IMG/VR virus record: IMGVR_UViG_3300046665_000368
Span: 1 to 35,979 of that record
DNA length: 35,979 nucleotides
Direction: 5' to 3' (one strand)
DNA from: a virus
Position 1 is the first letter of the stretch. Every line of letters starts with the position of its first letter. The notes beneath the pieces are model-generated. The model was not told where the DNA came from and searched no databases. It saw only the letters and a list, made by a program, of their open reading frames with translations. The position numbers and the translations under genes were made by a program. Below, in pieces: positions 3,504 to 13,242 of this stretch.

Positions 3504-3512
3504 TTGTTCAAA

Positions 3513-4307
3513 ATGAAAAAGATTTTTGCTGCTCTCGCAATCGCTATGTCTGTCGCTGCCTGCTCGCCGGTTCACACTGGCTACGTGGGTCTCCGGACGG
3601 ACTTCAACAACCAAGTTGTCGATCGCGAGATCACTGAGGGACAATGGGCTCAGCACCTGGTTGGATCGGTCGAGGAGTTCCCGATTCGAGAAGTCGGCAT
3701 TGTGTTGAATGATCGACGTCCAATCACCGCTGAGAACACTCCGCTGGGTGATTTCGATGCCACCATCACGTACAACATCAATCCCGGTAGCGTGAGTGAA
3801 CTCTGGGCCAAACGCAGCCGTACCTTCCATGGGTATCATGCTGATACGAGGGAGTGGCATCTGATGGAGACTCGTCTGGTGACCATGGCTGATAATGCCA
3901 TTCTCCGGACCATTCGACAATACAAGCAGCTTGAGGTGAACGACAAGCGTGATTTGATCGAAAAGGAGATCCTGTCGCATCTGAACGATGAGCTGGCCAA
4001 AGAGCATATTGATGGTAATATCGTGATCAATAGTGTTGTGGTTAAAGCCATGACGCCTCATCCGGATATTCTGAACTCCGCTCTGGCAGTGGTTCGTACC
4101 CAGAACGATCTGAAAGTCAAGCAGAATGAAGTTGACATTGCAAAGAAAGAAGCCGAGCGTATGGCTGCACTGAGTGCCAATAGCCAGCAATCAATCGCCT
4201 ACATGGATGCTGAGGCTCGTCGTATGATGGGTCAGGCCATGCTGGCTGGTAAGGTGAATACCATTGTGGTCCCGATGGACTTCAAGGGAATTGTGAATGT
4301 CAAGTAA
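3513..4307 (+). CDS. Band-7/SPFH (prohibitin-like) domain lipoprotein
   Basis: This 264-aa protein starts with a lipoprotein signal (MKKIFAALAIAMSVAAC, lipid-attachment Cys at about residue 17) followed by a prohibitin-like domain (about 20-190) and a charged Lys/Glu/Ala-rich helix (about 195-240) typical of SPFH proteins. Family members form large membrane rings; bacterial HflK/HflC regulate the FtsH protease. ATG 3513 is preferred to an upstream TTG because it yields a proper signal peptide. The last bases overlap the next gene. A phage Band-7 lipoprotein could shape host membrane or protease behaviour during infection, but its role is unknown. Confidence 0.8.
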   Translation: MKKIFAALAIAMSVAACSPVHTGYVGLRTDFNNQVVDREITEGQWAQHLVGSVEEFPIREVGIVLNDRRPITAENTPLGDFDATITYNINPGSVSELWAKRSRTFHGYHADTREWHLMETRLVTMADNAILRTIRQYKQLEVNDKRDLIEKEILSHLNDELAKEHIDGNIVINSVVVKAMTPHPDILNSALAVVRTQNDLKVKQNEVDIAKKEAERMAALSANSQQSIAYMDAEARRMMGQAMLAGKVNTIVVPMDFKGIVNVK

Positions 4308-8198: not shown

Positions 8199-8387
8199 AT
8201 GAAGCTTGAATTCAATCCGGATGAGCAGCAAACTTTCATGAAGGCTATGGTGACTTCTGAGAGGTACTACACTAGCGTGGCGAATGACCCTGAGATTCCG
8301 TATGAAGGTCAGAAGGCAGCACGGGAGATGAAATTGAAGTTCATCAAGCTGCAAGAGAAAATGGTTCACAAACAACTCGGTCTATAA
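8199..8387 (+). CDS. Hypothetical protein, 62 aa
   Basis: Not recognised. It is a small, charged, helical protein. ATG 8199 is chosen because a purine-rich GGAAGAAAAGAA sits just before it; in-frame starts at 8142 and 8172 would lie inside the polymerase gene. The stop overlaps the next gene as TAATG. Confidence 0.6.
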   Translation: MKLEFNPDEQQTFMKAMVTSERYYTSVANDPEIPYEGQKAAREMKLKFIKLQEKMVHKQLGL

Positions 8388-9241
8388 TGAATAATCTGGC
8401 TCTGTTCAATGGCCCTCTCCTGGACAATCCCACTCAGGAAGTGGAACTGGAATTCCGAACGTACTCTGGTGGTGAGGAGCATGTGCGCATTCTGGGTCGG
8501 CCCGGTGGCACTGCAAACTATGTCATTGTTGCTCGGTTGAAGAGCAGCAGTGATGTGATGCGTCTGGTGCTGTTAGTGGACGCAGTTCGACGCTGGGACC
8601 AAACCCAGCCCCGGATCGCCCTGCATCTTCCGTATCTGCCGTATGCCCGCCAGGACCGTGTCTGTAACCCTGGTGAGTCCCACGCAGTCGGCGCCTTCTC
8701 CCACATCATCAATGGTCTGAAACTTCATGCAATCCAACTCTGGGACTGCCACAGTGACGTCGGAGCTAGTCTCCTTGACAATGCGTTCAACAGTGGGCTC
8801 ACTGAAATCTGGACCAAATTCTGTGTCTACGATCAGTCATTCGGAAAGGTTATCGATGAGTCGATTCTTGTCAGCCCAGATGCAGGAGCTAATAAGAAAG
8901 TCTACGGAGTTGCACGGTCTTTCAATCGGGATTTCGTCCGAGCCGACAAAGTCCGAGACACCGCAACGGGTAACATTGTTGAAACCCAGGTGTACGGACT
9001 TGACGGACACAGCTCTGAAAGACCTCTCCTGGTCGTTGACGACATCTGTGATGGCGGGCGCACCTTCATCGAGCTAGCGAAGGTTCTGGAGAATCATGTT
9101 CATGAGCATGTTCCTCTGTATCTGTATGTGACCCATGGCATCTTCAGCCAGGGGTATGCACCGCTTCTAGCTCACTACGATAAGATCTTTGTTGCGAACA
9201 ATCTCCAAAATGACCGATTCTTCGAAGTTATCGAAAGGTAA
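8387..9241 (+). CDS. prs: Ribose-phosphate pyrophosphokinase-like protein (Prs or ADPR-PP synthetase)
   Basis: This 284-aa protein is of the PRPP synthetase family. The ATP-loop YLPYARQDRV lies at about residues 81-90, LWDCHSDVG at about 118-126, VSPDAGA near 165, and the phosphoribosyl-binding loop VVDDICDGGRTF at about 221-232. Classical Prs makes PRPP from ribose-5-phosphate and ATP. Close homologues in some phages (Adps of the NARP1 pathway) instead pyrophosphorylate ADP-ribose, and are often annotated as Prs. Its pairing with a Nampt-like gene makes both readings possible. It is slightly shorter than cellular Prs (about 310-320 aa). Confidence 0.88.
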   Translation: MNNLALFNGPLLDNPTQEVELEFRTYSGGEEHVRILGRPGGTANYVIVARLKSSSDVMRLVLLVDAVRRWDQTQPRIALHLPYLPYARQDRVCNPGESHAVGAFSHIINGLKLHAIQLWDCHSDVGASLLDNAFNSGLTEIWTKFCVYDQSFGKVIDESILVSPDAGANKKVYGVARSFNRDFVRADKVRDTATGNIVETQVYGLDGHSSERPLLVVDDICDGGRTFIELAKVLENHVHEHVPLYLYVTHGIFSQGYAPLLAHYDKIFVANNLQNDRFFEVIER

Positions 9242-9425
9242 GAAGGTTCATTACTACGATCCCAAGTTGAGCGTGGTAAATCCTCTCACCTTCCGTTCTG
9301 TTCTCCACAGGACTGATCCTCCTATGGCCCCTGGTCATATGTGTATCACGACTCCCGTCCTTCGCTATGACGTTGAAACTGGCGAAATTGAAACTCTCAA
9401 CACGATCTATAAAGTTCAAAAATGA
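9210..9425 (+). CDS. Hypothetical protein, 71 aa, between prs-like and nampt-like genes
   Basis: Not recognised. The ATG at 9210 lies inside the end of the prs-like gene (32-base overlap) and the TGA overlaps the nampt-like start (ATGA), so it is embedded in a three-gene coupled unit. It is a basic N-terminus followed by a beta-rich segment. Its place suggests a link to the pathway, but nothing in the sequence shows a function. Confidence 0.6.
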   Translation: MTDSSKLSKGKKVHYYDPKLSVVNPLTFRSVLHRTDPPMAPGHMCITTPVLRYDVETGEIETLNTIYKVQK

Positions 9426-10990
9426 CCATCCGTGTCTTTCCTCCCCACGCAACTGATTTCTACAAGACTGGCCACCCGTTCCAGTATCCCAAGCTGACTC
9501 AGGAAATCTACCAGAATATGACGCCTCGGAGCAATCGTCTCCTGAGCTATCATGGTCTGGACAACAAGCACGTTGTGTTCTGGGGTCTGCAGATGGTCAT
9601 CATGAACTATCTGATCAATACATGGGATGAGGAATTCTTCCAGAAGCCCAAGGAGTGGGTGCTGGGCCGCATCAAGCGTCGTATGGATCGTGCTCTCGGT
9701 GAGGGTGTGGTGACTGTGGACCACTTCGCACAACTGCATGATCTAGGCTACCTGCCGATCAAGATCAAGGCACTTCCCGAAGGTAGCCTGGTTCCGTACA
9801 AAGTCCCGATGTTCACCATCCGGAACACTCTCGATGAATTCTTCTGGCTTCCGGGCTACCTTGAAACTGCAATCAGTGCCGAACTGTGGAAGATCTGCAC
9901 GACTGCAACCACAGCTTATGAATTCCGAAAACTACTCAATTCCTATGTTGAACTCACCGGTGCTCCCAAAGAAGGGGCGGCTTTCCAGCTTCATGATTTC
10001 TCTGCTCGGGGCATGTCTGGCCTCATTGATGGCGCTATGTGTGGCACTGGCCACCTCCTTAGTAGTGCTGGCAGCGACACAATCCTGGCATACGATCTTG
10101 TTGAAGAATTCTATGGAGCGAATGCTGATGTCGAATTCATTGGTGGTGGCGTCCCGGCAACGGAGCACTGTGTCATGTGTGCAGGGATTGCAACGACTGA
10201 CGAACTGGAAACATATCGTCGTCTGCTGACCGAGACCTATCCTAAGGGTATCGTCAGTATTGTCAGTGACACCAATGACTACTGGGATGTGATCACTCGT
10301 ATCGTTCCGACGCTCAAGCCTGAAATCATGGCACGTCAGAAAGATGCTCTGGGATTCGCTCGGTTGGTTGTTCGTCCTGACAGTGGCAACCCCATTCATA
10401 TCGTTGCTGGCTATCTCCCGCACGAGTACAGCCGCCGACCTGGGGACGCTAAAGATACATTCGTGTGCAAGGCGACCGGCAACACGCTCACTGAGGCAGA
10501 GATCAAGGGTACTTATGAGTGCCTGTACGATACCTTCGGTGGGACGGTCAATGCCAAGGGCTTCATCGATCTTGATGAGCACATCGGTGTGATTTATGGT
10601 GACAGTATCACCTACGATACGGCACAGGAAATCTATCAGCGTCTTGCCCAGAAGAAGTTCAGTATCAGCAATCTGGTTCTGGGCATCGGCTCCTTCACTT
10701 ACAACTATGTGACTCGTGACACTCACGGGTTTGCCATCAAGGCAACGCATGGTATCTTTGGTGGTGAGTTCAAGGTCATGAAGAAAGACCCGAAGACTGA
10801 CATCAATCAAGTGAAGAAGTCCGCTGAGGGTTTCCTCCGTATTGAGATGGTTGATGGAGAGTACAAACTCTTCGACAATCAATCAACAATTCAGGAAGAA
10901 GAAGGTGAATTGAAAACCGTGTTTGAAGACGGCAAACTGGTTGGATTCACCACACTTGCAGATGCGAGGGCTCGACTTGGGGTTTTCTGA
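9422..10990 (+). CDS. nadV: Nicotinamide phosphoribosyltransferase-like protein (Nampt/NadV or Namat)
   Basis: This 522-aa protein aligns along its length with Nampt. It has LHDFSARGM (190-198), D219 in GSDT, PATEH with the catalytic-loop His at 249 (human H247), VVSDTNDYW-like SIVSDTNDYW (279-288), RPDSG with D320 (human D313), YGDS (391-394) and GIGSFTYNYVTRD (420-432). Nampt condenses nicotinamide with PRPP to NMN; the homologous phage Namat uses ADP-ribose pyrophosphate and makes NAD+ directly. Relative to human Nampt there are about 30 extra residues between D320 and YGD, where a promoter-like motif lies (10437-10454). The neighbouring prs-like gene supplies the likely co-substrate. Confidence 0.9.
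   Translation: MTIRVFPPHATDFYKTGHPFQYPKLTQEIYQNMTPRSNRLLSYHGLDNKHVVFWGLQMVIMNYLINTWDEEFFQKPKEWVLGRIKRRMDRALGEGVVTVDHFAQLHDLGYLPIKIKALPEGSLVPYKVPMFTIRNTLDEFFWLPGYLETAISAELWKICTTATTAYEFRKLLNSYVELTGAPKEGAAFQLHDFSARGMSGLIDGAMCGTGHLLSSAGSDTILAYDLVEEFYGANADVEFIGGGVPATEHCVMCAGIATTDELETYRRLLTETYPKGIVSIVSDTNDYWDVITRIVPTLKPEIMARQKDALGFARLVVRPDSGNPIHIVAGYLPHEYSRRPGDAKDTFVCKATGNTLTEAEIKGTYECLYDTFGGTVNAKGFIDLDEHIGVIYGDSITYDTAQEIYQRLAQKKFSISNLVLGIGSFTYNYVTRDTHGFAIKATHGIFGGEFKVMKKDPKTDINQVKKSAEGFLRIEMVDGEYKLFDNQSTIQEEEGELKTVFEDGKLVGFTTLADARARLGVF
10437..10454 (+). promoter_or_regulatory. Candidate phage promoter inside the nampt-like gene (site 2)
   Basis: GACCTGGGGACGCTAAAG differs from the exact motif at two positions, and the 13-base core GGGGACGCTAAAG is intact. 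The predicted start is 10454. It lies inside coding DNA and is read as RPGDAKD within a stretch that is extra relative to human Nampt. It would drive the downstream deaminase, exonuclease and primase-helicase genes. Confidence 0.55.
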
Positions 10991-12795: not shown

Positions 12796-13242
12796 GTGAC
12801 CAATCCAAAACCGACGACAGAAGCGGTGGATAATGGTCACTGGAAATTTCCTGAGCAATTAGACTTTAATAAGGCCTTTGGTTTCATTTACTTGATTCGT
12901 GAACGTGAAAGCGGACTGATGTATATCGGTCGCAAGAACTTCAAGAGTCTCGCTAAAGCGACCAAAGGCCGTTCTAGTAACTGGCGAGTATACACAAGCT
13001 CGTCCAAGAAACTCAATGAACTAATCGAAGCAAAAGGTAAACAGGCTTTCCAATTTATTGTGCTTGAACAGTATTACACCGCTGGTGGAATGGGATGGGC
13101 AGAAGTGTGGTCACAATGTATTGTGGAAACACCAACCAATTCTAAGTTTCTGAACGGAAAGATCGAGGGGATCCAATGGAGCTCCAAAGAGGTAATCACA
13201 CAGAGGCACAGAGATAGATTGGCAAAGATTCTGACTTGGTAA
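12796..13242 (+). CDS. GIY-YIG nuclease-like protein
   Basis: This 148-aa protein shows FGFIYLIRERESGLMYIGRK, i.e. the GIY (here FIY) and YIG blocks about ten residues apart, with the catalytic-type Arg right after YIG. NWRVYTSSSKKL and a Glu-containing WAEVW helix follow, and an Asn (FLN) comes near the end. The family makes metal-dependent DNA cuts; it includes homing, repair and structure-specific nucleases. It sits between exonuclease and primase-helicase, where T7 has its junction resolvase gene 3 nearby, so a recombination role is as plausible as homing. Start is GTG 12796; the stop overlaps the helicase ATG. Confidence 0.75.
   Translation: MTNPKPTTEAVDNGHWKFPEQLDFNKAFGFIYLIRERESGLMYIGRKNFKSLAKATKGRSSNWRVYTSSSKKLNELIEAKGKQAFQFIVLEQYYTAGGMGWAEVWSQCIVETPTNSKFLNGKIEGIQWSSKEVITQRHRDRLAKILTW

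Follow-up and report, generated by a model that had tools for sequence, protein, structure and literature searches.

A probable NARP1-type NAD+ restoration module with Adps and Namat homologues in a virus genome fragment

We find that a three-gene unit in IMGVR_UViG_3300046665_000368, a linear IMG/VR virus record of 35,979 nt that represents a genome fragment and was analysed over its full length (hereafter the window), is very probably the NARP1 module of an uncultured phage, in which homologues of Adps and Namat flank a 71-aa ORF (Table 1). NARP1 itself is already known and has been experimentally characterised, and the locus described here is another example of it, not a new system; the enzyme activities, substrate preference and anti-defence function proposed for this phage are predictions drawn from the sequence. 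In the proposed mechanism, Adps would use ATP to pyrophosphorylate ADP-ribose to ADPR-PP, and Namat would then combine ADPR-PP with nicotinamide to give NAD+ directly, without NMN or an NMN adenylyltransferase (NMNAT). Since ADP-ribose and nicotinamide are the leftovers of host NADase defences (TIR, SIR2 and SEFIR effectors), the pair would be expected to restore NAD+ during infection, and extra ADP-ribose may perhaps be released by a macro-domain protein encoded downstream.

Table 1. Features of the predicted NARP1 locus and the downstream macro-domain gene in the window
Feature	Position	Strand	Basis and remarks
Adps homologue, predicted ADP-ribose pyrophosphate synthetase, 284 aa	8387..9241	+	ATG at 8387, stop ending at 9241; PHROG 619, Adps clade, motifs
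71-aa ORF between Adps and Namat	9210..9425	+	ATG at 9210; alternative TTG start at 9189
Namat homologue, predicted nicotinamide ADP-ribose transferase, 522 aa	9422..10990	+	9w5x/9w5w kinship, clamp, Namat clade
Namat selectivity-clamp helix motif GSFTYNYVTRD, aa 423-433	10688..10720	+	Fits published consensus GSX(Phi)X(Phi)X(Phi)TRD
Macro-domain protein, 163 aa	26741..27232	+	PF01661, PHROG 335, DarG model; possible ADP-ribosyl hydrolase

A sequence-only reading of the window had proposed a coupled three-gene unit, and all three ORFs were recovered at exactly the positions listed in Table 1, with an overlap of 32 nt between the Adps homologue and the 71-aa ORF and of 4 nt (ATGA) between the latter and the Namat homologue. 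PHROGs, Pfam and NCBIfam agree in assigning the outer two genes to the Prs and Nampt families. Scans for promoters and terminators near the operon returned counts close to the shuffled background. Adps and Namat adjoin in 237 fetched loci, with a median gap of 29 nt; the loci behind this and the other locus counts given here were retrieved by similarity to Namat or Adps and do not sample phages at random.

Namat, which converts ADPR-PP to NAD+, can be told apart from Nampt, which converts PRPP to NMN, by an adenine clamp described in a 2026 structural paper on SPbetaL1 Namat (PMC12774641). The first part of the SPbetaL1 clamp is loop residue R40 and the second is a helix, GSX(Phi)X(Phi)X(Phi)TRD, in which the aromatics F392 and Y396 contact adenine (PMC12774641). 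In an alignment of the window protein with 16 homologues from the phage collection, SPbetaL1 Namat and human NAMPT, window residues R39, F425, Y429, T431, R432 and D433 align with R40, F392, Y396, T398, R399 and D400 of SPbetaL1 Namat, all of them being identical. R39 occupies the position of the SCL stacking residue of Namat (Arg, or Lys/Tyr followed by a stacker), and F425 and Y429 are the aromatic residues of the window clamp helix. The clamp is missing from human NAMPT and from the Nampts of T4-like, Sinorhizobium and Sphingobium phages, which carry GxGGxLL or a similar sequence instead. The Nampt-like catalytic core is intact in the window protein (nicotinamide/ribose residues D12, Y14, F193, R196, D219, R318 and D320), with the invariant H249 as the catalytic histidine.

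Kinship points in the same direction. The window protein matches PHROG 448 'nicotinamide phosphoribosyl transferase' (E = 7e-178), and its best solved relatives are 9W5X and 9W5W, both SPbetaL1 Namat, at 409 bits (182 bits for human NAMPT). A maximum-likelihood tree of 92 rows places it with Namat and not with NMN-making Nampt, within a clamp-bearing clade that includes SPbetaL1 Namat and homologues from ICP1, Felixounavirus and mycobacteriophages; human NAMPT and five NARP2-like Nampts of phages form a separate branch with 99% SH-aLRT support. The window Namat is at most 56% identical to any other row of this tree, an overlapping contig of the same phage being left out. Across the 92 rows the clamp motif is present in strict form in 73 and as a close variant in 11; the 8 rows with neither are the 6 of the Nampt group and the viral contigs L004 and L096. 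It is thus strongly supported that the Nampt homologue is a Namat-type enzyme, predicted to use ADPR-PP.

Since the structure of Adps is unsolved, the substrate of its homologue was assessed from kinship and motifs rather than residue by residue. The protein matches PHROG 619 'ribose-phosphate pyrophosphokinase' (E = 4e-70). In a quick tree of 112 rows it belongs to a starred set of 23 Adps rows, whereas the PRPP-making Prs of E. coli and Burkholderia are set apart by a stem of 2.4 substitutions per site with 100% support; it is at most 46% identical to any other row, again leaving out the overlapping contig. With two exceptions, the Adps-like proteins from outside E. coli share a stretch with a Namat. 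The window protein retains the catalytic lysine and arginines of Prs together with its histidine and double aspartate, but PDIGGVVR, KRRPRAN and DDMIDTGGTL of E. coli Prs are replaced by PDAGANKK, KVRDTATGNI and DDICDGGRTF, forms that are common to other NARP1 Adps. The signature of PRPP-forming Prs is therefore lost, the loop that binds the phosphate of ribose-5-phosphate having changed from DTGGT to DGGRT, and PDxGG to PDAGA. We suggest, as an unpublished proposal of our own, that the loop change may fit a substrate whose 5' phosphate lies inside a diphosphate. An AF2 model of the protein (pLDDT 94.5) adopts a PRPP-synthetase fold (Z 22.5 to 3mbi), and Foldseek against viral models and VIA-align against the PDB returned this fold again and nothing beyond it; the modelled fold does not settle the substrate.

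One alternative is ordinary PRPP/NMN salvage, in which PRPP would be made from ribose-5-phosphate and converted to NMN, with a host NMNAT completing NAD+. Both families derive from Prs and Nampt, and the database names agree with such a role. Namat also retains PRPP-dependent NMN synthesis in vitro (PMC12774641), so some salvage activity is possible. However, the full adenine clamp, the position of the window proteins in the Namat and Adps clades and the loss of the Prs loop led us to reject salvage, which we consider very unlikely. The sequence-only reading had offered NARP1 as a serious alternative to salvage, and the clamp residues, both trees, the Adps motifs and the NMNAT controls described below favour NARP1.

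NMNAT (PF01467) was found neither in the window nor in the overlapping contig, which is 99.99% identical to it over 10.6 kb and reaches 2,185 nt further upstream. The lack of NMNAT noted in the earlier reading is confirmed for the window, a fragment of an incomplete genome. The argument that it had built on this absence stands only in part: a fragment cannot prove that NMNAT is missing, and complete phage genomes were therefore examined as controls. All nine that carry a clamp-bearing Namat (W01-W09) lack an NMNAT, W09 being Acj61, with the variant clamp helix GSYSLNMISRD; NMNAT is also absent from DSS3_VP1 (W10). It is present in five of six Nampt-type phages (4/5 with a clampless Nampt, plus KVP40). 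This rule is not absolute, because L006 (7105-10322) has an NMNAT/Nudix gene in a row with Adps and a clamp-bearing Namat, so the presence of NMNAT would not in itself refute NARP1, contrary to what had been supposed. L006 is filed as Acinetobacter phage MD-2021a but looks chromosomal, and a close relative of its Namat occurs in many Acinetobacter genomes.

The same evidence was weighed against a NARP2-type pathway, in which the Nampt homologue would act together with a phage NMNAT encoded beyond the fragment. The record is indeed a fragment and an NMNAT gene could lie elsewhere, but neither the window nor the overlapping contig holds one, and NARP2 needs a clampless Nampt, whereas the clamp is present here and the NARP2-like Nampts form a separate clade that lacks it. 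NARP2 was rejected on these grounds and appears extremely unlikely.

The 71-aa ORF has no family match in Pfam, PHROG or NCBIfam, and tblastn in phages, an IMG/VR scan and phmmer on the fetched loci found no homologue beside any other NARP1 pair. Its sole relatives are weak matches to 24 C-terminal residues on two contigs, with no Adps or Namat in the stretches fetched. A single-sequence AF2 model has a low-confidence N-terminus and a C-terminal β-hairpin (residues 43-70). The suggestion that this protein is an extra component of the pathway is consequently not supported. In a three-component variant of NARP1 it would regulate, bridge or modify both enzymes. Such a role would accord with its overlap with both neighbours, which suggests translational coupling, and with the inserts of at least 140 nt that separate Adps and Namat in 46 of 203 distinct pairs (the gap is below 140 nt in 157). 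Against it, the ORF has no homologue in any other NARP1 pair, the 73-aa insert of PAK_P1 is unrelated, and Adps and Namat of SPbetaL1 are active as two purified proteins, with no stable complex and no third protein (PMC12774641); we regard the three-component variant as unlikely. Because the ORF has no NARP1-linked relatives and the SPbetaL1 pair works without a third protein, it is most likely a phage-specific accessory insertion that is dispensable for the chemistry.

Inserts sampled between Adps and Namat elsewhere encode macro-domain, HNH endonuclease, deoxyribosyltransferase-like and 'phosphoheptose isomerase'-like proteins. Homologous genes of 132-149 aa (PHROG 1238, 'phosphoheptose isomerase') occupy this position in the viral contigs L080, L033, L054, L204, L207, L212 and L239, and locus L067 has a gene of family PF15891 there; the window itself encodes a nucleoside 2-deoxyribosyltransferase of the related Pfam family PF05014 (4912-5337). 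In the 547-aa family PHROG 12872, with Shigella phage Ag3 protein C8XUN4, the beginning of the protein matches Adps and the end Namat, which may reflect fusion of a NARP1 pair or a deletion within one.

The macro-domain gene lies ~16 kb downstream of the pair. Its product scores 25.7 bits against PF01661 (cut-off 22) and also matches PHROG 335 and a DarG model (E=5e-13). DarG-like macro domains take ADP-ribose off DNA. Among 226 distinct loci, all fetched by similarity to Namat or Adps, 25 have a macro homologue within ~5 kb of the Namat or Nampt gene, and in seven loci the homologue sits between Adps and Namat. Release of ADP-ribose for NARP1 by such a macro protein has been proposed in the Adele paper (PMC12846349), and the window protein may likewise supply ADP-ribose to NARP1; either activity, this release or removal from DNA, would feed the pathway. 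A more elaborate arrangement, with the 71-aa protein as a regulatory or scaffolding subunit coupling Adps to Namat and, together with the macro protein, forming an extended NARP1 that harvests ADP-ribose from ADP-ribosylated DNA or protein, is highly improbable.

Four known systems come closest to the window locus. As in the Bacillus phage SPbetaL1 (PMC12774641), Adps and Namat lie in one operon, the clamp and core residues are identical and NMNAT would not be needed; unlike in SPbetaL1, the window Namat is ~21 residues longer, with a variable insert around aa 330-363, and the genes are separated by the 71-aa ORF. In the Pakpunavirus NARP1 (PAK_P1, Adele; PMC12846349), Adps and Namat likewise enclose a small ORF, of 73 aa in PAK_P1, and the genome also has a macro-domain gene, but that ORF is unrelated to the one in the window and the macro gene follows close behind Namat, in contrast to the distant one in the window. 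Mycobacteriophage DyoEdafos likewise has a two-gene NARP1, with an accessory enzyme that releases ADPR, RyDEP, encoded inside the operon (PMC13232231), whereas the accessory candidate in the window is the macro-domain protein outside the pair. The RyR domain of RyDEP (PF02026) had no match in the window, but the same search matched no control genome either and may be insensitive. The NadV and NatV of the NARP2 or KVP40 type share with the window a phage enzyme of the Nampt family in a route from nicotinamide to NAD+, but NARP2-like Nampts lack the clamp and are accompanied by NMNAT.

The surrounding genes encode a DNA polymerase, dCMP deaminase, exonuclease, primase/helicase, ribonucleotide reductase, RNA and DNA ligases and RtcB. 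The primase/helicase has its nearest relatives in marine Roseobacter and Pelagibacter phages (~40% identity), and a 740-aa ORF on the upstream extension of the overlapping contig, read by eye, looks like a T7-type RNA polymerase. An SPFH/Band 7 domain protein (3504-4307) is encoded within the phage replication region. The PHROG label 'NAD synthetase' on 12796-13242 was rejected and looks like a misannotation, since Pfam identifies the product as a SegE-type GIY-YIG endonuclease, not an NAD enzyme.

Our results add a divergent phage to the NARP1 set. They also indicate that NARP1 can be distinguished from NARP2 by the published Namat clamp motif in fragments that lack annotation, for which the names 'Nampt' and 'Prs' mislead. 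The recurring macro-domain neighbour raises the idea that some phages may recycle ADP-ribose from ADP-ribosylated targets into NAD+.
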